From assembly GCA_950295325.1 (NCBI GenBank), contig OX485807.1, positions 39,276,440 to 39,340,439 on the forward strand: DNA of 64,000 nt, in the 5' to 3' direction. This DNA is from Polytrichum commune. Its lineage: Eukaryota; Streptophyta; Polytrichopsida; Polytrichales; Polytrichaceae. The notes below the pieces were generated by a model, which ran no database searches, had not been told where the DNA came from, and worked only from the letters and a program-made list of their open reading frames with translations. Made by a program: the position numbers and the translations under genes. Shown here in pieces: positions 4,444-64,000 of the stretch (position 1 is the first letter of the stretch; each line of letters begins with the position of its first letter).

Positions 4444-6301
4444 GAGTGTGTATAATTATGCTATGGAAATATTGGGAAATATGGGTAGGCAAACATTGAT
4501 ACGGACTTGTAGTAGTCCACTAAAACCTCTGGCTCATGCAACATAGCATTTTCCTTCTCCATCATGTGGTGTGAAGGAATTGTCCGTATAGTAGGATTGG
4601 GCTGGTGGGAAGCATAGGCGAATATTGATGTTATAGTTGGTGGGTTGGATTGGGCTATGTGCCATGCTTTAGGGATTTTGATGTATATTCTGTTTGTTGG
4701 GGGGTGAGTGTGGTGGGGTAGGTGGTGCAAGTGGGGAATAGTGCTCTAGGGAGTTGTTGGAGGAAGGTGGGTATTTGTGGTGTGGTGGGTGTGTGGGAGA
4801 ATAATGAAATGGAGGTGATGCATGGAATGTATCTTTGTTGTTGTAGTATGTGGGGAAGGGAAATGTTTTGGTATATTGTAGAGTGAATGGTGGGATAGTA
4901 AGTGTACAAGTTACATGTGGTTGTTGAAGTGAGTTGGTTGGATTGTTTGTCTAATCATCGTGTGTGATAGTAATAATTGTATTGGAGTTGTGATTGGTGT
5001 GTGCAACTAGTCGTGCCCATTTGATAAATTTTGGGAGTAGATCTAGGGTTGTTATATGGGCGTACCCACATCCTATACATTGAGTGGAGAAGGATGAGCC
5101 TAGTCAGCCAAATATTACATTTCTTTCATATGGGAAGTGGTAATGTGATAATGGCATGAGACATGTGAGTGGATTGGAGAAGTATGAGTGTGTGATTTGG
5201 AAAGGTTTGTATGAATTAGTCTAGCATTGATGATGGTAATGTGTGGTGGTTATGGATGAAGGGGATGGTGGGTGGTTTGCGTCTTGCAAGCTTTTATGTA
5301 TTGGTTAATGAGGAGAAGAATTTACGTGGCAAAGTCTTATATAGGTGGGAAGAGGGTGTGGTTCACGATGGGTTTATAGGTTGAGTGTCTTTCCCATAGC
5401 ATGTTAATTTGTCAAGTGGTATAGCGGTTTGGTAGTTTCCCATGTTGTCATGTATTCGGGCCAAAAGGGGGGGGGGTGTATTTGTATTGTAGGTAATGCA
5501 CCAATGATGTCTTTGTCTTGGTTACATTGTTAAGTATGCAGGGTAAGGTGTGGGATGTTCAGGTGGGGGTGAACATTTCGTCTGTTGCATGATTATTGGG
5601 GTTTTAGGCTGTTGATTTTGTTTTTTGTTCTTGTTCTTGTTGTCTTGTTATTTTCTTGTGCAAGTTTTGTGATGACTAGTAGGTTGTGTTTATAGAGGAT
5701 GGTGTTTAGAAAGAAAAAAAACTTTGTGCGGTTTGATGGGTGACTAAGAATAAAGGATAGGGGTATAGAAAGAAAGAACTTGTTTAAGAATTGTGTTTGT
5801 GTGATCCATTTGGAATGGTTGGTGCGTGGGATTTGCCAATGATAGTGAAATGTATGTGTATGTTGCAAGATTTATTTATTTATTTATATTTTATTCTTGG
5901 GTGGGGGATTTAATGATGGAGATGCATGGGGGTGGAGGTAGGAGGTGGTGGTGTGTGTTGTGTGGGGGGTGGTGTGTGGTGTGTATTTGGTGGGAAGATG
6001 GCAATGCTTTGTAAAAGTGCACTTTTCAATATTCTAGATTTGGTATGATATTTACCTTGAAATTCTTTAATGATGAGTATGCATGTGTTGGTGCGGTCTT
6101 GAATTTGGGGTAAGGATGGCAATGTTGAAGGAGGAGAGTTTTTTTTTTAAGGAACTTCTCCGTTTTGGATCTTTGTTGTGGAATGAGAGTGGGATGAAAT
6201 GGGCTTTTGTACCAATCTTTCGATGGCGGGTAGTTGTTGAGAGGAAAGGTGATGTCAATGGAGTCTATATGGATGTGAAAGTGTTTTTATTAGTATGTAG
6301 A
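4444..6301. other. Intergenic, G/T-biased plus strand, probable extension of the LINE relic
   Basis: No gene supported. The compositional bias of the neighbouring LINE relic continues to about 5950. The ORFs here are low-complexity products of that bias. A short G run lies at 5467-5476. Confidence 0.35.
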
Positions 6302-6726
6302 GGGATTTACACGGGGAGGTCACTTCATTGTCAAGTTGACACCACGTGCGGACAAAGTTTGCTACCCCTATATTACATGCCATATATAATTTTAAAATTT
6401 ATGATATTTTTTCTACATATACATAACCATTGATAGTATCTTTTGTATAATTATTTGAAATTTTTAGTCATCTTTATTTTTTTAGTAATTGTTTTAGTTC
6501 AATTCAGTGTCATTCTAGTTAGAAATGGTATGTTTTATGAAAAAAACAAATCATCAAATTTAGTTACCACTTTTAACTATGTCATAGGTATTGTGTATAT
6601 CTACTCATGAAAAAAATTTGATAAAATTTTGACCCATTTTGGTGGTGCAACTTACCAAAAGAAGATTTTTTTTGGCCACACGTGGTGTTCAACTTGACAA
6701 TGGAGTGATCTACCCGTGGGGATTTA
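6302..6726. mobile_element. hAT-type MITE with perfect 8-bp target site duplication
   Basis: A 409-bp element at 6310-6718 is flanked by identical GGGATTTA octamers (6302-6309 and 6719-6726). The ends are inverted: the left starts CACGGGGAGGTCACTTC and the right, read inward, starts CACGGGTAGATCACTCC. Similarity continues for about 40 bp through ATTGTCAAGTTGA(A)CACCACGTG. An 8-bp duplication with CA-starting ends is the signature of hAT transposons. The inside is AT-rich and non-coding, so it would need a transposase from elsewhere. The exact duplication suggests a fairly recent insertion. Confidence 0.85.
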
Positions 6727-7083
6727 GTGGTTGGTGATCTAGAGCATGCTTGGTATTTTAATTATGGGAGGTGTTGAACTCTGACAAGTAATGTTCATAC
6801 TCTGGAGTAGATGACATTTGTAATGATATATGGATATGTGACCAGGTTTCCATCTTTATTTAATTATGAGACAATCAAGCAGTGTGGACTTTTGATGGTT
6901 GAAAATTCTTTTGTGAATTGTTTGTGGTTTTTTTTAGTAGTGTCCTAAAATGTTTTATTGCTCATTTGCAATTACGGGGAGTTTTTGTAGTGGTTATTTT
7001 TTGGGCTTCTGCCTTGACATCTATTGTTGTGTTAGCTATGTTGTCCAACCAATCCTATGTTTCCAATAGGTCATAAGTGGTGG

Positions 7084-7118
<35 letters not shown>

Positions 7119-8037
7119 AATTCATGGTTTAAGATGTCAGTTAGGGGTAATTGCAAATGTGGTGGCTCTAATGTTTTTTTTTTTAATTTATGAGATGGTA
7201 GGTGTTAAGTTGTTTTTTTTCCCATTGTTTTTGTATTTTATGGGGCAGGAAATCCCCTTGACGTTTTGTTTGTGGGGTGAGGGAGAGGGTGGAGGTGTGG
7301 CACGTGTGTATATGGCACATTCACTTATGGAGCTTATGATGGTTTGTGTTAATTTTTGTGCTTTGCCCCCTTCTTTTTTTAATCTCACCTAGTAGATTTC
7401 CAATTTATATTCATAGATTTAAAAGCCGCCCAGTGGAAGAGAACCAATGGTAAGGAACCGCAACTCATGTTGTGAAGGTTGTGATCCGTGTTATACAAAT
7501 GAATACCACTAGAAGAAAATATACTTCAAACTCCATATTTTTATAAAAATGTCCATCTTTAAATAACATTCAACAAATTATATATTTCAATATATATTAA
7601 CCCATGTACATTCATAGTATGGCAATTGAACATAACAACACTTAGTTGTAGGCTGATGCATCATGGGACTATAATTCTTTTGGGCATTATGCCCCTCTTA
7701 TTATGGGCCTCTCTTACAAAATGAACAAGTCTCAGTATGAGTGATTTTCACAACAATGTTTTCAATTGATAGATAGCCAAACATGGGCTTTACCAAGCTT
7801 GTTTAAAATAAATAAATAAATAAATAAATAAAGTTATTGATGCATGGTGGTTGCATACACTTGGCCCCATATTGAAGGTGACACATGCCATGCACGTTGC
7901 CCGAAAACACATCAAAGACCAAGAATAAAGTAGCGAGAATTAATGGCCGGGAATAATTGTGGGGTTGACAACTTCAAATTGTGCATTCCCTATTTAGAAA
8001 GGAAACAACAACTTCATTTTGTGTAATGTTATGATTG
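6727..8037. other. AT-rich intergenic DNA with two microsatellites
   Basis: No gene supported. An (ATT)n run lies at about 7087-7115 and an (AAAT)n run at about 7806-7832. 6750-7390 has the G/T bias seen in the LINE region. Confidence 0.4.
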
Positions 8038-8607
8038 TTGAGGGGTTGTTTACACCATGGACCATGAAGTTGTCCCAAGGTCATGTAGAATCGGTGATTG
8101 GTTGTTGAGCATGTCTGGGGACCACTTCGGTTTACACCAAGGAAAGAATGTCAAAGTCACCATGGAGTTTGAAGTCCCCAAAATACATATATTAAGATCT
8201 ACATTATCCACTGACATGGTCCAATGAGTTTTGCAGTGGGAGAGGCAAAAGAGGTGCTCCGGTAGAAAAAGGCAAGGGCCATGGCAAAGAAATATTGTTA
8301 TAATAAAAATTGAATGAATATTTTTGTCGGGGAAGAGAAGACGAGACAAGAGAGGACAAAGGAATGGTCAAACTTGAATTTTTTTCAAAATTATATTTTT
8401 TGGTCATATACTAAGAAAATCAACACATTCTCTTTTTTGTTTGGTGCATGGTCATTCCTCTTGGTCCACATCCGGTTTACACCTAGTGAGGGGTCCAAAG
8501 GCTTTGTAAATTGTTATTATGAAGAAACCAAACCATGGAAGTTGAACCTTCAAATCAGACCATGGAAAAGGCTATCTTTCATGGTCCATGATGTAAACTG
8601 GCCTTGA
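8038..8607. mobile_element. Harbinger-like MITE, full length
   Basis: A 562-bp element (8042-8603) whose ends are inverted copies: the left reads ..GTTTACACCATGGACCATG and the right, read inward, GGCCAGTTTACATCATGG. TTGA occurs on both sides (8038-8041 and 8604-8607). The inside is homologous, in the opposite orientation, to the element at 52298-52877, including CGGTTTACACCAAGG and GGTCCAATG blocks. It is non-coding. The family assignment rests on related elements in this window that have TAA/TTA duplications and the same end motif. Confidence 0.7.
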
Positions 8608-9000
8608 ATAAAGACAACTTCTTACAATTTTTTTATTTTTACTTTTTGTTTGTATTAAATATTTTAAAAAACTCTTCTTCAAGTGTTGAAATCCAACAAA
8701 TTGGAGGTACCGAAGAAACCACATGGACACCAATGGTTACATAAGCATTCCGGTTGATGGCATACGCAAAGCCAATGAGAGGACGATGAATGCACCCCAA
8801 ACTTGCAAGAAGGCTAATGATTCCATTTTCCTTCAATGAAGGGCATCACACAAGACGCAAACAAGGGGGCTAGATTACGTTGAAGATAGGATTGAATTTG
8901 AGCATCTCCTCCATGACACCATCCTAAATTTACTGGACTCCCAAATTAGCTCATGGAATAGAATAAAAAGTTAATTAAAAAAGAGAAAAGAACACAATAG
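8608..9000. other. Upstream region of XDH
   Basis: No gene seen. This is the distal promoter region of the xanthine dehydrogenase gene. Confidence 0.3.
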
Positions 9001-10089: not shown

Positions 10090-13000
10090 ATGGGGTCTCT
10101 GGATGAACGTAAGCTTAGCGAGACTGGTGTTGCCACCGACTTCAGCAAAGAAGATGCGATTCTTTACGTGAATGGAAAACGTTATGTGCTGCCTCCGGAT
10201 GCCGCACACCGCACTCTCCTCGAGTATCTGCGAGGTTGGTTTCATTCCATTCATTTTGCCTCCCGATTCAGAAATAATATTTTCCCTGTTCTCTACCCTC
10301 TGTCAATGCTCTCGTGTCAAACCTTTGCTCTTGGTTCCATTGGTTTTGATAATGTTGCGGTGCTCTTGAACAATATGTGTGGTTGGGGCGTAACTAGTTT
10401 GATGAAGGATGTCCATAATACTAGTAGTAGTAGTAGTAGTGCCCCTCAAACTATTCGGAGAGAGCCGATGAGGCTGAGTTCCTCAAGTGCATTTTGAGAG
10501 ACCGCTGTACCCAAAATCCATTGCATTCATCTTCCAAATCTTCGTGAAGAGTGAACTTTAATGTCAACCCTTTGGCCTTATTTCCTTTTGTTTTGGTGTC
10601 GCGGTGTCATGTAATGTTGTCGTGAACAATTTGGATGTTCGGGGCGTATTAAGTAGTTTGAAGGATGCCAATAATACTAGTAGAGTAGTGGCTCTCAAGC
10701 TGTTCGGAGAGAGCCAATGAGGCTAAGTTGTTATTAAGCACACTCTTGACTTCGCTATACCCAAAATCTATTGCATTCATCTTTGCAATCCAGCCGCACA
10801 CCGCACTCTCCTTGAGTATCTGCGAGGTTGATCGCTTCCCATTTCAGAGAGAATCCCTGCCTCTGTCGAGGCTCTCATGTCAAAGCCCTTTGATCTTATT
10901 TCCATCAGTTTTGATGATGTTGCGGTGTCGTATGTGACATTCTAACACCACTCATCAATATTTGGGGGATCGCGCTGTCGTCACCCAATTTCTGGTTGAT
11001 TCTTTCCTTGCCTTGTGACGGATCCACCATTCGGATCGGATCAAACCTTCAAGAATACCCCTACCGCCTCGAAGGCACCAAACTTTTCGAAGTGGGTTTG
11101 GTTGGGAAATCATTCAATTTTTCTTCAGGGTTAACCCAATAATGCTCATTGTTCGATTTATCAGAACCGGATGATTATGGTTTCAATATGTCGAAGGCGC
11201 ACTATAGCATTCACTCTCCATTCAATCTTCATCCAATTTTTTTCAGTTCTTGAGCAATCTTCTCTTAATCTTTATCAATCCTCATTTATTCTTCGGGCGT
11301 TTGTTGTTCGTTTTGGTATGTGGCTTTGGGAAATCATTCAATCCTTCAAGGGTTAACTCAACAATTCCCCTTATTCGATTTACCAGAACCGAATGATTAC
11401 GATTCTGGTTCCAATGTGTTGATGAAGGTGCACTATCGCATCCACTCTCCATTCCGTCTTCATCTGGTCCTCCACAATCTTCATCACCAATCTTCGGTGG
11501 GGTTGGGGTTGGGGTTGGGGTTGGTATATCGTGTCACTTCTCTTGAAAATGCTTGTTTTTCGTTGTGGTATGAGGGGTTTGGTAGGTCAGGTTGATTCTT
11601 ATGAGGTTTTCGGTGTGCACACTGCACAGGGATCGGTCTCACAGGAACGAAACTGGGATGCGGAGAGGGCGGGTGTGGAGCATGCACTGTCATGCTCTCG
11701 CATTACGACACAAATAGACGCTCTATTGTGTAAGACTTACTCCTCACCAGTTTTGTGCGCCTTACTAGACATTAATCAATTTTGATGGAATGTTTTGAAA
11801 TCTCTTCTCTGTTGGAAATATTGGTGTAATTTGGATACTGGTGTCCTTCGGATAATGCCGACTCCCTTTCTGAAGTATGATCTTATTCGACTACCGTGTA
11901 TCAGGAACCGCGCCATCAATGCATGTTTGGCACCCATTTATTCTGTGGAGGGAATGCATGTGGTGACAGTGGAAGGAATTGGAAATCGTCGTTTCGGATT
12001 GCACCGAGTGCAGGTATGTCGAAGAAGGTGTTTGATGATCTAGTGCACTTTCAGTTTCCGAGTTGAAGTTCTCCATCTGATAATAGTTTGTAACCACTTG
12101 CACGGATGGTCATAGTCCGTGAGTGTAGGTTCCGAGGTATTAGATGATCTGGTTCACTTTCTTGAAATTCTCGATTTGACATTCACAACATTCTTAAGTA
12201 GAGATTCCAAAGCAAATGGACCAGTTTGCAAATAATCCGGAGTCATAACTTAAGAATGATCCCATTGGGGCTTCATACACTTCTTCAATTGAATTTAGTA
12301 GATGGAAGATAGCTTGTCTCCGAAGATAGGCATCAACAATGAGGGCTCTTTCAATTCTAGCTTGCCACGCGACTATGCATGTACTCAAGGACCTTGATTC
12401 TTGATGATTCTTTCCTTTTGAAGCTAGAATTGAAAGAGGACATCCTTACATACATCTTAAGGATGCAATGGATATTGTGTAAACATTCGGAGATATTTTC
12501 CATAATTGCTCTTCGCATTCTTTGATTGTATGAAGCGTTAGCCATTGCACATGCTTAAGAATGTTAGTGATGTTCTGTAATCACTAAAAGGATCTCTAAT
12601 GCTTTGATTTTTTGATTCTTTGATTTTAGGAAGCGTTAGCCAGCGCACATGGCTCCCAATGCGGATTTTGCACCCCAGGGTTTATTATGTCGATGTACTC
12701 ACTTCTCCGAACCAAGAAGAAAGCACCAACACAGCAAGAGATCGAAGAGAGCTTGGCAGGAAATCTATGCAGATGCACAGGTTACCGTCCCATTCTTGAC
12801 GCATTTCGAGTTTTTGCAAAGTCAGAAGCATCGATGTACACCGACGAGGCAATCACAGCAGCCGGAGGCTCACCAGTGAAGAAAATTGGCGCCAATTTAG
12901 AGAATGGCGCCTCAATTTGCCCATCGACAGGTATTCCCTGTGACTGTGGGAAGTCATCGTCCTGCCAAGGCTCACAGAATGGGTTCACCAAACGAAGCTC

Positions 13001-16000
13001 ATCTTTCCCAGCAAACAAGACCATTCCACAGGAACCACAAAACAGTGATGATAGAAGTGTAAGTTTGCACAAATTAGGTAAAGACAATGTTGCAGTTCCG
13101 AGAGCGGAGCCAATTTTTCCTCCAGAGTTGGTGAAGAGAGCCACCCGCCCTTTGTTTCTCCGTGGCACCAAGGGATTGAAATGGTACCGGCCAACAACGC
13201 TTCTGGATCTTTTGGACTTGAAGCTCAAGTATCCAGATGCAAAGCTAGTGGGAGGAAACACCGAAGTGGGGATTGAAACCAGATTCAAAGCCCTCCATTA
13301 CCCAGTTCTCATTGCAACGACTCACGTCCCTGAGCTTCTCACCTTGAAGGTTAGGGATTTCCCCCGAACTTTAAATACTTCTCTTAGAGCCGATTCTGTA
13401 GTATTTAAGTAAAGTTATGGATAAAGGACTTGTCCCAAATAATAAGGCATCTGAGAGTATTGTTTGTGTGTCGTCAAGACAGATTGTCTGAGGAAGACAC
13501 TAGAAGATCATGGATACCCTAATTATACATGCTTTGAGAACAAGCAATGTGGTTAAATATTGACTCTAGATGTATATTTCTCACAAATAGTGTGATGCAT
13601 GCAACGAAAACGTGTCTACAACAAGAGATGCAGTTCACATGTAAGACTAGTTTCTGCCATTTCTATCATAGGTCCACCCATAAACAATTTCATCATGTCC
13701 AAAATTCACATAAATCTAGATTTGCCTGAAACCTCTCTGGAGAGAGAGATTGGCTTGTCGTCTAGGATTGTTTTGAATTTGTGCTAGATTGATGAAACAC
13801 CATTTTTTCTTTTGTCACTTATGATCTTACATATTCTGAAGGAGAGTAAAATTTTGCCACGACTTGAAAAGGCCACTTCATGTCCCAATACCCATCCCTG
13901 CCTGACGACTTCATTCAGAACTCCATTGAGTTTCTACATTTTGTTTTTGTTTTTGTTTTGTGTTTGTTTTTGTTTTCCTTTTCTTGATGAATCTGTGCTA
14001 AATTGTTGAGGAGTGTTGCATTTCTTTGTCTTCGACAGGTTACAGAAGACGGTGTTGAAATTGGTGCATCTGTCACCCTGACCGACCTTTTGGAGTTTCT
14101 AACGGAAGTCGTGACAGAGGAGAAGGAGCACAAGACCATGGGATGCAAGGCGATCATTGAACAGCTGCGGTGGTTTGCGGGCGCGCAGATACGAAATGTG
14201 TCGAGTGTCGGAGGGAACATCGTGACAGCTAGCCCGATTTCTGATCTGAATCCTCTTTGGATTGCTACGAGGGCTGTGTTCACCGTGGTCGGCCATGCGG
14301 GTGCTCTGCGCAAGGTGGAGGCGAAAGACTTCTTTGTTGGCTACCGCAAGGTCGATTTGAAGAAAGACGAAATTCTTGCGTGCATATCTTTGCCATGGAC
14401 GCAACAGTATGAGTACGTGAAGGAGTTCAAACAAGCGCACCGAAGAGATGATGACATTGCTCTGGTCAATGCAGGTTAGCAACACAATTCTTCTGTCTCT
14501 AATTCTTGTTCATTCTTATCTGCTCTTCAAGTTAAGGTGGATGGGTCAGTCATAAATGGTTGCTTTTCCAAGTAGACTAGCCCAATCCCTAGGATATGAA
14601 ACACATGATCGTATCAGTATGAGATGATTAGCAAATCCAAATCGAGACTGTAGCCACTTCCCTCAAAAATTTTGGAGCTCATATGAATATATTATTCATT
14701 ATCAAAGTGAAGATTCTCATGCTCATTAAATAATCATATAGGTCCCGCAAGTTATGTACACCACAGAGGCTAGAATGGTTATTATATTTATAACGCGTTG
14801 TCCAATCTCTTTTGGACACACTTCTTTTTGGTATCCGTTCTTGGAGCTAGACCAAACCACAAACAACTCAAATATAGGTGACCGATCAAGATAAGTAACC
14901 GAGTAAGGCACATCTACTCTAGATATGTGTTAATCCAACCTCCAACAATGGAACCCTACTTCAAGGTTGGATTGTGGCAGTCAACATCATCATGAAGTGG
15001 TCAAAATCGTAATCAACCTAGAATATGACCAAATTAGCCGACTCTATTATGCAACTAATGTCACGAAGTAATGTAACATGATGTGAAAGTGGATGCACCC
15101 ACCAATCGCACAAGTTTCTCATATGGTCTGTGGGATGAATGATAGCGCCCGAAATACAGTTTTCGGTGCGGCTCAACATGGGAGTGGTAGGTAGGGAGTA
15201 TACGTTTAAGCAGCAGCGTTTTCTAAGGGGAGGCCAACATGTCTAATAATCTATGTGCAGAAGAATCTTGTCTTCACATATTCAAAGAAATTTCTCCGGA
15301 AAGAACTCTTGCTATCTTCTGTCCTCCACACACGAAATTTGCAAGTACCTCAAAAATCTCCCACAAGAAGAAGGTTTCATGCTCAGAAGAAGTGTCCACT
15401 TTAGACACGTCTACCTTACATGAATTTTATGAATGTACATTGCATTAGAATCATTTGTACAATTGAGTGTACATGATTGGATTCATCGAATTTTCTGCTT
15501 TCACCATATCGAATGACAGAGATTGAATGCTTCTGCACCGATTGCTGTAACTCTTGCAGGTATGAGGGTTGCCCTCACCAAAACGAATGGAGCTTGGGTT
15601 GTGCGGGACTCATGTCTTACTTATGGTGGAGTGGCAGCCATAGCTGTGTCTGCGAAGAAGACACAGGATTTCTTGAAAGGCAAAGCATGGAACCGACAGA
15701 CTCTGGATGAAGCCCTCTCCCTGTTGCAGGCCGAGATTTCCATGGTACCGAATGCCCCCGGTGGGATGGTGGAGTTTCGAAGCTCCCTCATCTCCAGCTT
15801 CTTCTTCAAATTCTTTCTGTACACTAACTACAGGCTGGAGGCAGATGCAAAGTTTGAGCATGGACTTCCGGAGACTTATCGGTCTGCTGTGGCTCAGTAT
15901 GTGCGGGAGCCCTCTCGAGGCATTCAGATGTTCCAAACATTGGCCAATGGTACCGGCGTTGGCCTTCCTATCCAGCACCAATCTGCAAACCTTCAGGTGT

Positions 16001-41136: not shown

Positions 41137-41310
41137 GTGTCTCAAAACCCCAAATTCAATTGGTGTTTGCCTTATATTGACACGTGTCCACCTCACATTG
41201 GGTTTCGGACCAAATATATGAGGTCTCCTCTCATAGCTGAACTAAGAAGTACTCGAAGTGCTCGTGGTGGCAGTGGGTGGATTAGGGTTGGTCATTAGGG
41301 TTTGGGGGCC
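41137..41310 (+). promoter_or_regulatory. Upstream region of the DUS2 gene
   Basis: Short interval between the MITE and the ATG. It contains GACACGTGTCC (41180-41190), which has a CACGTG G-box core. No clear TATA box. Function is inferred from position. Confidence 0.3.
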
Positions 41311-42327
41311 ATGGCGATGGCGAACGAGATGGAATATCGCGGCAAGCACATCTTGGCGCCCATGGTGCGAGTCGGCGGCCTGCCGTTCCGCATGCTTGCT
41401 GCCGAATACGGGGCCGACATAACCTACGGTGAAGAAATCATCGACCACAAGGTACTGCGCTCCAAACGAGTCGTGAACGAAACCCTAGGCACCGTGGATT
41501 TGGTGGAGAGTGGAAGTAATGAGGTCATCTTTCGCACTTGCGAGGAGGAGAAAGGGCGAGTTGTGTTTCAAGTCGGTACTTCCGATGCTGTGCGGGCTGT
41601 GAAGGCTGCCAACATGGTGGCTGGTGACATCGCAGCGTTCGATGTAAACATGGGGTGTCCGAAGATGTTTTCAGTGAGCGGAGGCATGGGGTCTGCGCTT
41701 CTTAGCAAGCCAGAGCTCATTCACGACATATTAACGATGTTAAAGAGAAATCTGAGCATTCCCGTGACATGTAAAATTAGATTGCTGAAGACGTATGCGG
41801 ATACGGTTGAGCTGGCTCGAAGGATCGAGAAGACAGGGGTTTCGGCCATAGCGGTCCACGGGAGGAGAGTGGCAGATAGGCCGAGGGATCCGGCCCAGTG
41901 GGACGGTATCGCGGAAGTTGTGTCAGCTCTTTCCATCCCGGTAATTGCAAATGGTGATGTGTTTGAGTACGCTGATTTCCAGCGTATTAAAGATGCAACC
42001 GGTGCGGCGTCGGTGATGGTTGCCAGAGGGGCTGCTTGGAATGCGTCGGTGTTTAGACCCGATGGCATGTTGTCATGGGAGCATGTGAAGAGGGAGTATG
42101 TCAAGAAGTGTGTTGACTGGGATAATGATGTGAAGAGCACCAAGCATACATTGAAGGAGATGCTGATGCACTACTCTTGCTTGGAGTTTCCTGAGGGCAA
42201 ATCTATCAATCGTTGCCGATCCATCAAGGACCTCGCTGATATGTACGAGCTTGAAAGCTACTACAATAGTGTTGTGGCCTCTCGGGGATCAGGAGTGACA
42301 GATTATACATACGATCATGGCTTTTAG
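41311..42327 (+). CDS. DUS2: tRNA-dihydrouridine synthase, DUS2-like, single exon, 338 aa
   Basis: A flavoenzyme that reduces a uridine in the tRNA D-loop to dihydrouridine (position 20 in the DUS2 group) using NAD(P)H and FMN. The ORF is intact. It shows LAPMVRVGGLPFR (FMN phosphate side), YGADITYGEEIIDHKV, the catalytic Cys116 in FDVNMGCPK, a CKIRLL block, AVHGRR (His183), IPVIANGDV and SVMVARGAAWN. The true start is ATG at 41311, giving MAMANEME; the in-frame TTG at 41302 is not a plausible start. It lacks the C-terminal double-stranded RNA-binding domain of animal DUS2. Intronless, unlike the other enzymes here, which could mean retrocopy origin or normal family structure. Its 3' end is repeated downstream. 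Confidence 0.92.
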   Translation: MAMANEMEYRGKHILAPMVRVGGLPFRMLAAEYGADITYGEEIIDHKVLRSKRVVNETLGTVDLVESGSNEVIFRTCEEEKGRVVFQVGTSDAVRAVKAANMVAGDIAAFDVNMGCPKMFSVSGGMGSALLSKPELIHDILTMLKRNLSIPVTCKIRLLKTYADTVELARRIEKTGVSAIAVHGRRVADRPRDPAQWDGIAEVVSALSIPVIANGDVFEYADFQRIKDATGAASVMVARGAAWNASVFRPDGMLSWEHVKREYVKKCVDWDNDVKSTKHTLKEMLMHYSCLEFPEGKSINRCRSIKDLADMYELESYYNSVVASRGSGVTDYTYDHGF

Positions 42328-49152: not shown

Positions 49153-50214
49153 CTAGGGAGAGAAGTTGATGTCGTAAACCGGTGTCTCGTCCGCGTTGTA
49201 GAGGCCAAAGTGTTGTTCGATAGCCGCGCCTGTCTTTTTGTCCTCGTTGAATAGGGCGAAGATGTAGGTGTCCATGTTGACGCTGGGGCGGGCGGGCGTG
49301 CCCGCCCCGCTCAGAACATGCTTCACTAGGTTGTTGTTGTAAGTTTGTGCATTCACAACGCTTGCACCGGTGCTGCTGCTGGGCCCCGATGGCCAACCCG
49401 ACTCGGTGATCATAATCGGCACGCTTTCATATGAGCCGACACGGCCCATGGCCGCAACGACGGCGTCCACTGTTGCGTCGAACAGGTTGGTATATGTCTT
49501 TCCGTTGCCGGAGTCGGTCACCGTTGGCGCGCCGGTGTTGAAGAGCGCGTAGTCGAGGTTGATGTCGTTGCTGGGGTTGGCGTACGCGGTGTAGGGGTAG
49601 ACGTTCACCGTCATCGGAGACCCGTGCTGCACGCAGAAATCAAGGTATGACTGTAGGATCGTCGCGTATGCGTCCTGGAACGTACCATTTGATGGCGGGT
49701 ACGACGTGGCCAGGATCCCTGTCTGGTGCGGTGTGACGACCTTCACGCTGCTGGCCAAGCCCGCGTTCTGGACGGCCGTTTGCACATTCTCGATCGCGGG
49801 CATCAACTTCGACGAATCGTATGCTGAGTTTCCCAGGTACTCGTTGCCCACACCGATGTACGTGATCGTTGTGGACGCGTACGCCTGGACGTTGCTCGAC
49901 ACCCACGTTGTTGCCGCGGACTGATCGTCGGCCATGCTCGCGACTTGGTCGTTCGGGATAGTCACAAACACGTCGATCCCCGAGTTCGCAAACGCATTCA
50001 ACACGTCACTATTCGCGTCAAAGATCTTCACGTGCTTCACCCCACGCCCTTGCAGCAGCGTCACAACGTCCGTGGCTGCCGGCAAGTTGTCTCCATTGAG
50101 CCCGTAGTTTACTCCAACTGCGGCTTGAACTCTGGGCAATATCAACGTGAGTGCCACCGCAACCAAAGTCACCGCGAAACTTGTCAAATTGGTTATTGGA
50201 TTGCGCCGTGCCAT
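49153..50214 (-). CDS. Secreted GH17 beta-1,3-glucanase, single exon, 353 aa
   Basis: Endo-beta-1,3-glucanase-type glycoside hydrolase family 17, acting on callose or fungal glucans outside the cell. It begins with a hydrophobic signal peptide (about residues 11-31) and likely cleavage at VQA-A; the mature N-terminus is AVGVNYGLNGDNLP. A TIM-barrel follows, with the acid/base Glu125 in ITYIGVGNE and the nucleophile Glu271 in IMITESGWPS. VNVYPYTAY and FALFNEDKK are further GH17 hallmarks. It ends shortly after the catalytic domain, without an X8/CBM43 module or an obvious GPI-anchor tail, so a soluble secreted enzyme is likely. No intron is seen. The third codon positions are strongly GC-rich, unlike the AT-rich surroundings and the XDH gene. 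Start ATG at 50214-50212. Confidence 0.93.
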   Translation of the reverse strand: MARRNPITNLTSFAVTLVAVALTLILPRVQAAVGVNYGLNGDNLPAATDVVTLLQGRGVKHVKIFDANSDVLNAFANSGIDVFVTIPNDQVASMADDQSAATTWVSSNVQAYASTTITYIGVGNEYLGNSAYDSSKLMPAIENVQTAVQNAGLASSVKVVTPHQTGILATSYPPSNGTFQDAYATILQSYLDFCVQHGSPMTVNVYPYTAYANPSNDINLDYALFNTGAPTVTDSGNGKTYTNLFDATVDAVVAAMGRVGSYESVPIMITESGWPSGPSSSTGASVVNAQTYNNNLVKHVLSGAGTPARPSVNMDTYIFALFNEDKKTGAAIEQHFGLYNADETPVYDINFSP

Positions 50215-51079
50215 AACTATTGCTGCTAGTTACTATGAACAGCTCGTAGGAGAATCAACTGCTGCTTGGAGGTGGTAATTGTATCTGGGCCGGGGGCTGA
50301 TCCCAGAAGACTACCTTCTTGATCTCGTGGCCTGCATTTCAGAGATTCCAAATTGAATTACCAGAGCATATGATCTGCCGACCTGGATGGTCCTTCTCCA
50401 AATCTCAACATTGATATATAATCGTCAGCCCGACATTGGATCAAATGCCATTAGAGCTGTAATTTGCGTGATGACATCTTCCGCATGTGTGGACGGTTGT
50501 ATGTTATTCATGCAACTAATTGAAGAGACAGTATGCACTGATATGAATCTTGTGTCTTTTGCTTCATCAATCTAAATATGATCATCATTTAGTTTCGTAG
50601 TGTCCTGGAAATATATCTATGAGTCCCTAAACAGTCTCTAGGTTGCATATATATCCTAAGAGCATGAATCAAGTACACTAGTAGTAAAAACATAGATGGA
50701 TGGATTTAAATGTTGGCTCTTAAAAGAGCAAGCATTTGACTGGAGAGCCTCTTCGCCTGCAAACTACTGTCCCCTTTCGTGGAGGTGCGTTGCTGTAAGC
50801 CCTGTGCACTCCACTATTGTGTAGTCTACATGGAGATGGACTTCTTTCTGAACCTGATTTGAAGGATCTCCCTCAAAGTTTCTTTTTCTCACAACACATG
50901 ACCCGATTTACGAAAGGAAGAAATTAAAAGAAATCATCAATTTATCCCTTGGTCACCATTTTGAGCGGGCAAGCCTCCTGTGTAAGTCGTGTATTATCAA
51001 AGGGACACATGGACACGACAACAACACTGAATCTCTTTTGCACAAAAACCATTAAAGAGTATCACTTTCCTTCAATGTC

Positions 51080-60955: not shown

Positions 60956-61399
60956 GAGACGCCAGACCATTCACAACACAGGGATTGAATAGACGATGCA
61001 CAAAATTGGGAAAATCCGATGCAGAGATAAACTGCTCATATATTAAATCCGTTGAATATTTACAAATGTCTCACGTGATAATCTATCACAATTTCCGTGT
61101 CCTACAAAATTGTCCTACAAAACTGGCAGGCCTAGGGTGTCACGCAGAAAAGGCTCGCGTGGGCCTCCTCAGGAATGCTACGATGTGAGCGGTGAGCAGA
61201 TCTCGTGAGCAGAAAATCGAAATTTAAAACTCCATTTAACGAAAGTTAGGACCCTTATGACCGTGGATTTTGCACATATTTCAAGTTTAATTTTGGAATT
61301 ATGAGGCCGATATTTATGGAGTGCCTAATTTTTAGGACCAAAAGTTTCTAAAAATTACCAACGAGGCCCTATGGCCGTGGGAAAAGTCAGTGTGGTTGA

Positions 61400-61930
61400 G
61401 AAGATGGTGGACCTATGGGAAGAGGCCTCGGATCCGAGGCCTCTTAGTTGTGGGTAGCTTATGCTTGAAAATCAAAATGTTATGTATATTTGAGTTGGCT
61501 ACTTGTCTTTGCATTCGGCCATTTCTTGTATGTGTAGTGCATGAGGAGGACCTATAGGAAGAGGCCTCGGATCCGAGGCCTCGTAGTTGTGGGTAGCTTA
61601 TGCTTGAAAATCAAAATGTTATGTATATTTGAGTTGGCTACTTGTCTTTGCATTTGGCCATTTCTTGTATGTTCTAGCATGAGGAGGACCTATAGGAAGA
61701 GGCCTCGGAACCGAGGCCTCTTAGTTGTGGGTAGCTTATGCTTGAAAATCAAAATGTTATGTATATTTGAGTTGGCTACTTGTCTTTGCATTTGGCCATT
61801 TCTTGTATGTTCTAGCATGAGGAGGAGGTTTGGAAAGAGGCCTCGGATCCGAGGCCTCTTTTTTGTGGGTAGGATATGCTTGAGAAATCAAAATGTTATG
61901 TGTATTTGGTTTGGCTACTTGTCTTTAGAT
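61400..61930. repeat. 138-bp tandem repeat, four copies, each with a 24-26 nt palindrome
   Basis: Palindromes start at 61420, 61559, 61697 and 61835, a period of 138-139 bp. Each has the arms AAGAGGCCTCGG / CCGAGGCCTCTT around a GATC centre (perfect in copies 1 and 4, one or two changes in 2 and 3). Units 1-3 are over 95% alike by eye; unit 4 is diverged and loses its end. Because 138 is a multiple of three, an ORF of 46-residue repeats stays open on the plus strand, but its content gives no sign of a real protein. Confidence 0.85.
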
Positions 61931-62064
61931 TGTCTACTAGTTGACAACCACAAAAGTGTAGTGTTATTTGAGAACAACGACAAGATGCATTCAACAAGAT
62001 AATTGGAATATTGAAAACCACACCACACTTTATAAATCCAAATACCAATCAATCAAACCAAAAA

Positions 62065-64000
62065 TCAATCAACAATGACGTTGTCACTACTAGATTCCCT
62101 ACTTCCAAAGATACTCCCCTCATGGCCGCCCTCATCTGAAGAGGAATCTAAGGTATGGCATTCATTATCCACCTCTGCAAGAACATCGAAGAAGTCTAAG
62201 GCACGGGGGTCATAACGTGGAGACGGGGTACTAGCTTTGCTAGGAGAAGGTTGTGCCACTAGTACCATCGCCATATCATGGGCATAGATTGGCAAAGAGA
62301 ATCCCTTGGTAGGCGTACCAAACACATCCGCTCCAAGGCAAAGTCTGAAAACAAGCATGAAAATTGTAAGAAAAAGGATGGAAAATGTAAAAGCTAAGTG
62401 GACAAGGAAAAGAAGCAACTTAGAAGGTCATCATACTCACTTACTGCGAGGACTTTGGCCTCGATCGCTTCAAGGCCGGCGGCCTCTTCTGCGTGCCTTG
62501 TGAAGCCTGCGTGGAAGCAACAACAATGGATGGAGCCTTCACCGCAGGCTTAACACTCTTAAGTGGCTTAAGGACACGGTTGAAGGTGTCCTCGTCCTCC
62601 TCAAGAGCAATGATATGGCGCCCAAGCTGCATGCATGCATGGATAGAAGTCCCTGTTGCGGAGGAAATGTTAGCAAAGGAAAAAAAAAAAAAAAACTTAG
62701 AAATTGAAAACTTGGATATGATGGCAAGTGAAGTAGGACATACCAACGCCCGCATTAACGTCCACCACAACCTGTCCAATGTCCGTAGTGGCCATTATCA
62801 AGGAGGACATGAAAGAAATATCTTTCTCCTGGGGACCACGCCAAGCTTTGGAGCTGTCCATGAGAGGAGTTACGGTATAATTCATAATCGCATCATCCAT
62901 ATCGAGCTCAATGCCAAGAGCCTTGAGCTCATTGGCATCGCGAAGGCGGAATGACGAGTGCCGGGGCCGCTTATCAAGGTCGAATCCAATTGTTTTGGTG
63001 GCACGAACAAGTAAAACAACCTGGAAGAGGTTGGTGGTCTTGTCCACATGTTTAGCTGAATGAAGGCGAAGACGGTTGACTCCCAGCCACTCCTTAAAGA
63101 TCGTGAACCCAAAAGCAGCGAAGTGGTCTTGAATGCTCTCCTTGAAGTCACCATTGTCATCTGCATGAAAGAGGAGGAGAGCTCCATCGTCATGCAGGAT
63201 CTCATCCGCAAAATCGAAGAGCTCACCTAGAAAATCGGTATCCAATGCATTCCAGGAAGGTACACTATAGGAAGGATCGGAGACATTGGGTACAGGCAGG
63301 TTCTCCGGGATGTCGGCAATGACAAGATCAGCCATGCCCACATCTGACCTCGCAACGCCTAGAGCTCTCCGCGGATAGGAGGGTGGAAGAGAAAGAATGA
63401 AGTTGGAAACCTCCTGAAAATGACGACGTTGATGAAGGATAGAGGCATTCAAGATGCATTCTAAAACAACGGGAGGACGCCTAGCAGATGAAAGAATGGG
63501 CGGAGGAGGTGGCCTGGATAGAGTAGGAACTTCACTAAGAGATGGAGTAGATGCAACTGCCGCCTCAGGTGAAGCAGGGGGAGGGGGATTATCCTCCACA
63601 GTCTTGAGCTTCCTCGCGCGCTTCTTGAGTGATGATTCGTCTTGAGTTGCACGTTTCCTCCTCTTGGACTTCTGTGTGTTGGCCTCATCGACAGTCGCAA
63701 CAACCTCATCCGCCTCCGGAAGTTGACTGTCAAGGAGAACAACCTCATCGCTTTGAGCAGGAGGCAGGGAAGGCTCTCCACCGGAGAGCCGAATCTTCAA
63801 CTCCGCCTCCTCATCCGGTTGCCACGTCCTCTTACATTCCAAGTACCAACAACACTCGCGGAGATGCGGGAGGGAGAAGTTGCGCTTTTGAGCCGGGGAA
63901 AATATGAAGGTAGGTGAAGAGGAATCAGACCATGCATCAAGAAACGGAGGGAGCTTCTTCAAAGCCTTCTTCTTGAAGAGCTCGTGCTTGATGTACCTTG
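62065..64000 (-). CDS. DNA N4/N6-methyltransferase-like protein, degenerate catalytic motif, 5' end outside window
   Basis: Exons: 64000-62744 (open to the edge), 62652-62445, 62344-62065. The junctions are in phase (GTATGT donor; GTAAGT donor at 62444 just before what would otherwise be a TAA). The order of motifs is that of permuted beta-class methyltransferases. First comes motif IV, ADLVIADIPEN (63332-63300), where the catalytic DPPY is DIPE. Then a helix and strand (FDFADEILHDDGALLLFHAD). At the C-terminal side is the SAM-binding motif I, QVVVDVNAGVGTSIHACMQL then GRHIIALEEDEDTF, matching DxFxGxGTTxxAxxxxxR..xGxExdexy. Before the domain lie a Cys-containing segment (CCWYLECKRTW), a basic stretch like a nuclear signal (KSKRRKRA, KKRARKLK) and a Pro/Ser linker. 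The tail has an acidic Ser-rich patch (DSSSDEGGHEG). By family it would bind SAM; methylation activity is doubtful with motif IV altered. Confidence 0.7.

Follow-up and report, generated by a model that had tools for sequence, protein, structure and literature searches.

The window, as we call the whole 64,000-nucleotide stretch of Polytrichum commune DNA analyzed here, ends within a gene. The analysis confirmed that positions 62065-64000 (minus strand) make up the 3′ portion of this gene, which contains introns and encodes a beta-class methyltransferase (MTase) domain with permuted motifs (Table 1). Three exons (E, F and G) join in phase into a single open frame, as a preliminary description of this DNA had stated, and their borders are GT/AG. 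In the encoded protein motif IV (ADLVIADIPENL) is followed by WRGPQEK...DVNAGVGTSIHAC...GRHIIALEEDED, and motif IV precedes motif I. The start of the gene is outside the window, and a ParB-like frame lies 2.0-2.8 kb past the window end. A tail like that of exon G was also found, on reading by eye, in loci L033 and L034. Elsewhere in the window, an intronless open reading frame for an NLI-interacting-factor-like (HAD) phosphatase (PF03031; 59896-60657, minus strand) lies ~0.5 kb from the 3′ end of the element described below, and ordinary genes encode molybdopterin-dehydrogenase-type 2Fe-2S/FAD domains (12630-13409, plus strand), a dihydrouridine synthase (41299-42324, plus strand) and a glycosyl hydrolase 17 (49156-50229, minus strand).

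Table 1. Features of the gene and of the element that carries it (window positions).
Feature	Position	Strand	Remarks
DNA transposon, 3′ part	61170..64000	-	runs past the window end (C5:39340440 onward)
3′ terminal inverted repeat CAGGAATGCTACGATGTGAGCGGTG	61170..61194	-	pairs imperfectly with the 5′ end CAAYGACGCTACCGTGTGAGCG... of other copies
Tandem array	61409..61926	.	138-bp unit, 3.7 copies, near the element 3′ end (TRF)
22-bp perfect palindrome GAGGCCTCGGATCCGAGGCCTC (core TCGGATCCGA)	61422..61443	.	more at 61561-61582, 61699-61720 (one mismatch) and 61837-61858
Exon G (last)	62065..62344	-	LPIYAHDM-type stretch, acidic tail, stop codon
Exon F	62445..62652	-	end of motif I and next strand (TSIHACMQLGRHIIALEEDEDTF), then basic stretch
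Exon E	62744..63998	-	5′ end at or past the window end; linker (basic/acidic), then MTase domain, motif IV through first half of motif I
Motif I	62744..62762	-	DVNAGV-G, last codon split by intron; position of DPFxGxGT of beta-class enzymes
Motif IV	63303..63314	-	DIPE; beta-class enzymes have DPPY there

The MTase-like gene is an accessory gene of a large, many-copy terminal inverted repeat (TIR) DNA transposon. An alignment with four other copies breaks off at window 61169/61170, and the 3′ end of the window copy is the same as in complete copies. Four complete elements, E10, E11, E12 and E13, measured 14,681, 16,417, 14,219 and 14,697 bases (14-16 kb); all four were flanked by perfect 10-bp target-site duplications, and their inverted ends were imperfect (CAAYGACGCTACCGTGTGAG.../CAGGAATGCTACGATGTGAG...). 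Independent copies of the element thus combine inverted ends with a target-site duplication, as TIR DNA transposons do. A search for the 5′ end of the window copy by the expected duplication and inverted end, with 2 mismatches allowed, did not find it, so the duplication is known from E10-E13 and not from the window copy. The genome (~408 Mb, 64 contigs) contained at least 103 matches to exon E, with 97 of 1,988 first-look candidates scored; at least 44 of the matches were near-full-length, extending from residue 1 to residue 428 or beyond with 88-100% identity, and other families showed 28-50% identity. The 10-bp duplications, together with near-identical copies at different sites, show that the element is mobile. 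The window copy itself looks damaged, with a ParB-like exon that departs from the frame of the other F1 copies compared and a transposase match that stops at residue 688 of 751. Its PQEK is a further sign, since [PA]REK occupies this position in all nine of the other aligned domains.

The transposase gene is located on the strand opposite to the accessory gene (E10 5252-8963, two overlapping frames), and its matches at two other copies lie in open frames of 1,241 and 1,234 aa. Two Asp strands followed by CxxH, the glutamate of SETVHN and a SWIM-like CTC...CKH (CxCx(n)CxH) were recognized by eye. The transposase frames matched no Pfam family (including PF10551) or PDB entry, and a search for PF18758 (KDZ transposase) gave no match, as did its control. 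Mutator-like elements (MULEs) have target-site duplications of 8-11 bp, SWIM domains and accessory open reading frames, some of them antisense, according to the portions of PMC6446971 that describe them. The present element resembles MULEs in its 10-bp duplication, SWIM-like motif, D/D/CxxH/E residues (read by eye) and antisense second gene; it differs in that no PF10551 match was listed at the E10 transposase and in that an hhalign comparison with one MULE of the same genome detected no significant similarity. As profile comparisons do not recognize the transposase, the label is based on the 10-bp duplication and the residues read by eye, and we consider the transposon probably Mutator-like.

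Homology of the MTase domain to the beta-class N4/N6 family (PF01555) is secure at the level of sequence comparison. A profile of ten family domains (A1; some lacked exon F) aligned with CcrMI (PDB 6pbd) at E 1.3e-4 over positions 5-196 of 196, i.e., nearly end to end, with motif IV placed opposite ADPPYNL. CcrMI differs at both motifs, its DPPY corresponding to D-[ILV]-P-E and its DPFxGxG to D......G with other residues between. Two scores of the sister family F7 against PF01555 (N6_N4_Mtase), 32.4 and 35.3 bits, were above the Pfam cutoff of 26.7, and in blastp with the database size set to 1e6, F7 matched the remaining families at E 5e-7 to 2e-24. In addition, hhalign with three phage MTases gave E 6.6e-9 over 54 columns around motif I. 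These comparisons bear out the earlier proposal of a permuted beta-class homolog; the PF01555 search suggested along with it was successful for F7 and gave no match, to this or any other Pfam family, for window exon E alone. A genome search with PF01555 yielded 83 matches at E ≤1, of which five reached the cutoff: two in F7 and three on small contigs (C10/C12) whose genes look bacterial or phage-like. Below the cutoff, two matches that were checked fall in family F5 loci (L033 and L034), at motif I. When viral contigs were scanned with A1, 38 stretches fit the pattern and none was confirmed; no relative of the F7 protein was found among phages. A single-sequence AlphaFold2 model had a mean pLDDT of 35.5, too poor for comparison with the class I MTase fold. 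Since motif IV departs from the catalytic (D/N/S)PP(Y/F/W), we classify the domain as a homolog and not as an active member of PF01555.

The change in motif IV to D-[ILV]-P-E is old, family-wide and under purifying selection. In A-D-[ILV]-P-E, the A-D, P and E were invariant across the ten A1 domains. At the codon level, the pattern A-D-x-P-x-x-L-P-V-P occurred at 280 genome sites, compared to one for the reversed pattern. Among 100 listed of these 280 sites, position 4 of the motif was Glu in 93, Lys in three, Asp in two and a stop in two, and was never Tyr, Phe or Trp; position 2 was Ile in 76, Leu in 21 and Val in three, with eight codons in use. The 93 Glu codons were divided between GAG (55) and GAA (38). 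Of three F7 copies read, L040 had DIPY, and L041 and L042 had DIPD. Values of dN/dS between subfamilies were 0.14-0.18 for exon E and 0.08-0.20 for the MTase part alone. Young copies gave 0.23-0.51 for exon E, and values for their MTase part alone scattered from 0 to 1.18 on at most nine changes, too few for any inference. It is the turnover of synonymous codons, together with low dN/dS between subfamilies, that marks the altered motif as both old and kept. The preliminary description was right that motif IV is changed, and the change is shared across the family. Its view of the gene as maintained holds for the family (dN/dS ~0.15 between subfamilies, codon turnover) and not for the window copy, which looks damaged. 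The opposite case it had named, a decayed transposon open reading frame with random substitutions, proved correct as to the transposon and wrong as to the decay, given the conserved motif and the low dN/dS of the family. In (D/N/S)PP(Y/F/W) of motif IV, the aromatic residue is the base-stacking one. Because Glu replaces this aromatic of DPPY, the domain is less likely to be a normal methylase, and a DNA- or SAM-binding module or an enzyme of altered activity is favored over a normal adenine or cytosine methylase.

The exon upstream of exon E carries ...IPLCRLIHMPLVRPTLRSDV..L...F..GY... plus MFFVYDGNHRLLAW. An alignment of eight copies from families F1-F7 had 25 invariant columns, GNH among them; read by eye, the sequences have [DE]GNHR in F1-F6 and DGNHP in F7, and an upstream P...R...L...G pattern was also present. 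The ParB/Srx signature consists of a GxHR/GERR motif and an upstream P...R...L...G pattern. On the basis of this motif and of weak matches, the exon reads like a ParB/Srx-like domain. Phrog_1033 matched at the position of the motif with E 0.4, and hhalign of the ParB-like part placed GNHRLLAW against phage GGRRYVAC in an alignment that was not significant. A genome search with PF02195 (ParB_N) gave four matches, none in these elements, and no ParB was among the matches of PDB searches.

Palindromes recur in the noncoding DNA of these elements. The 22-bp palindrome of the window array had four matches, compared to 0.00 expected in shuffles, and the element also contains 128-bp arrays between its two genes. 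Each of five F1 copies, one of them the partial window copy, contained repeated perfect palindromes of at least 14 bp, (C)TGTCGGATCCGACA(G) and AGGCCTCGGATCCGAGGCCT; the 61,169 window bases outside the element contained 11 palindromes of this size, none of them repeated. The F1 16-mer recurs amid unrelated flanks, as seen by eye at E11 sites. Across 12 units of an array in L016, identity was 99.5% at the palindrome and 90.7% outside, which is only suggestive, since 7% of flank windows score as well. Other families have palindromes of their own: TGGTCGGACCCGACCA in an F2 element (20 copies within 2 mismatches), GTTTCGGTCCCGAAAC in an F5b element (13 copies within 2 mismatches) and GTCTCGGTCCCGAGAC in two F5 loci (6 and 4 copies).

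These palindromes have a common form. Of the 29 element loci searched, 17 contained the 16-bp pattern NNNTCGGNNCCGANNN, at 151 sites altogether; at 114 of these, each of the three arm pairs was complementary. It was absent from a 94-kb control composed of the 61,169 window bases outside the element, 19.6 kb of flanks and 13.1 kb of MULE loci, and from eight bacterial or phage loci. The 12 element loci without it (L022, L024, L026, L027, L036 and L040-L046) cover mainly genes for the most part, and several are genes only; all F4, F6 and F7 loci read are among them. In L035, an F5-type locus, none of the six core sites had complementary arms. The complementary arms observed were CTG/CAG, TGG/CCA, GTT/AAC, GGT/ACC, GTC/GAC, GCC/GGC and one CTC/GAG; as the sites of any one array duplicate each other, the independent evidence amounts to this handful of different arms. 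Many element loci thus have 16-bp palindromes that recur with one fixed TCGGNNCCGA core and with arms that are mostly complementary and specific to the family. The 11 core sites of E10 are distributed between the divergent genes (six), a presumed intron (one) and the 3′ end (four nearby). Two loci, L015 (C4:39563114-39573013) and L016 (C7:11389877-11399776), have an F1-type gene adjoining a long array of ~170-bp units with one CTGTCGGATCCGACAG each; no transposase was nearby among the matches listed, and these are perhaps non-autonomous. A second recurrent palindrome, GGGCGCTGTCCCGGGACAGCGCCC or its core, was observed at L016:2900, L036:2138, L014:5899, E11 11537 and in one E10 flank, and may mark another repeat family.

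Accessory genes are exchanged between elements with nearly the same transposase. We identified at least 55 transposase copies with at least 87% identity to that of E10 (60 scored of 2,552 candidates). Among the best 150 of 1,128 ParB candidates, a divergently oriented ParB exon was present within 15 kb of 28 of these 55 copies; the remaining 27 had none within this distance among the same 150. At this distance and among the matches listed, 15 of the 28 linked exons were at least 80% identical to F1 and 13 at most 45%, and the identities of their transposases overlapped (90-100% in the F1-like group, 91-96% in the other). Among the matches listed, limits of 10 kb and 20 kb gave 26 linked copies (14 and 12) and 30 (15 and 15), respectively. 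In a shifted-position control at 15 kb, the mean was 0.135 and the maximum 2 in 200 trials. This pairing of very different accessory genes with nearly one transposase constitutes cassette swapping. The F5b element provided one clear test of whether palindromes move with the gene. Its transposase is 94% like that of E10, its 5,839 intergenic bases contain no F1 site within 4 mismatches, and its 3′ region (L028) carries a GCC/GGC palindrome as F1 elements do. In this one element, then, the arms of the internal sites follow the accessory gene, and the palindrome near the end follows the transposase or the element ends, in a comparison that covers few independent families.

The best reading of these features is that the accessory protein is a self-recognition protein, probably non-methylating, acting on the candidate palindrome sites. 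With a probability of roughly 60%, we propose that it binds the palindromes of its own transposon family for marking, shielding or control, its MTase part likely not being a normal methylase. The ParB-like/MTase-like protein would bind its family's palindromes (for F1, the candidate site CTGTCGGATCCGACAG) and load onto the noncoding DNA of the element, like ParB, which loads on DNA at parS, or like VANC on VANDAL repeats. Once bound, it may mark or shield the element against host silencing, or control its expression and transposition. The palindromes could also be read by another protein or fold into hairpins. A more detailed version, to which we give somewhat less than even odds, is a eukaryotic parS-like self-recognition system, in which the ParB-like and altered MTase domains read family-specific 16-bp palindromes and specificity is switched by swapping gene and arrays while the transposase is kept. 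Each arm would then confer specificity through its three outer bases, with the TCGGNNCCGA core fixed.

Other explanations were considered. The protein could be an active methyltransferase: with D-[ILV]-P-E it would still flip an adenine or cytosine and methylate it, and the transposon would label itself with 6mA or 4mC at or near the palindromes. Binding and modification of their own transposon by such proteins has been proposed in the passages of PMC12477816 devoted to them; the Asp and following Pro of motif IV and the Asp and Gly of motif I are invariant in A1, the domain is under purifying selection, and DIPY in one of three F7 copies and DFPY in one phage ParB-MTase indicate that relatives tolerate loss of the first Pro. 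The Glu that occupies the aromatic position at nearly all listed sites, with Tyr, Phe or Trp at none, speaks against this activity, which we judge unlikely. Similarly improbable in our estimation is an account in which the transposase binds the palindromes, or these act as structural hairpins, and the ParB/MTase-like protein has a role unrelated to them. Transposases often bind internal or subterminal repeats, and a shared transposase would fit the GCC/GGC palindromes located 278-693 bases from the E10 3′ end and present in both F1 and F5b elements; against this, elements sharing 94% transposase identity have different internal sites (CTG/CAG versus GTT/AAC). A host gene with a chromatin role, as the preliminary description had suggested, domesticated from an old MTase and functional at this locus, would agree with the intact window exons and the purifying selection on the family, but is all but ruled out by copy number and element ends, given many near-identical dispersed copies with target-site duplications and a window copy whose ParB-like exon does not keep the common frame and whose transposase is truncated.

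Self-recognition by a palindrome-binding accessory protein would have parallels in known systems. Sola elements duplicate 4 bp of their target site. ParB-MTase accessory proteins have been reported in algal transposons, e.g., Sola1-1_Ec32 of Ectocarpus, whose accessory gene is, according to the account of these proteins in PMC12477816, likewise opposite to the transposase strand and encodes ParB-like and N4/N6 MTase domains. The present elements differ from it in the 10-bp duplication, SWIM-like transposase and D-[ILV]-P-E, and the likeness between the two is one of description. The same account of ParB-MTase proteins makes no mention of palindrome arrays or cassette swapping, and its proposal of self-binding and marking names no sites, while explicit candidate sites are available here. 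In Arabidopsis, the VANC anti-silencing proteins of VANDAL MULEs recognize short motifs that lie in tandem repeats within the introns and the intergenic and terminal noncoding regions of their own VANDALs, and cause loss of methylation, binding of VANC21 having been demonstrated by ChIP-seq and EMSA, as described in the main text of PMC5735166. They too are transposon accessory proteins, and motifs and proteins change between related elements; binding is inferred here from repeat and palindrome anatomy, and a methyltransferase is unmentioned in that main text.

Phages often fuse ParB folds to N6_N4_Mtase, as noted in the relevant part of PMC12704722. Three such fusions (L039, L048 and L053) share the domain order of the transposon protein, with an N-terminal ParB followed by a beta-class MTase, and differ in being single open frames with DPPY (L039 and L053) or DFPY (L048) in motif IV. 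The one of the three that was scanned for ParB_N, L039, scored 2.1e-11. Given the algal ParB-MTase, phage-fusion and VANC precedents, this kind of protein is already known; as far as our searches go, the altered motif, the swapping and the family-specific palindromes appear to be new, and the literature search found no earlier report of the altered motif IV, the palindromes or cassette swapping. Because the candidate sites are explicit, family-specific and located beside genes of known sequence, specificity is directly testable. In addition, its conserved non-canonical motif IV makes the family a natural case for asking whether the fold of an amino-MTase can be converted to targeting or shielding, and, if the proposed model is true, cassette exchange on a near-constant transposase would illustrate how transposons change their self-label. 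The small contigs C10, C12 and C23, on which L038 and L039 are located, carry bacterial or phage genes (PF01555, ParB_N), including the L039 ParB+MTase fusion with DPPY, and are likely contamination or symbiont or phage DNA.
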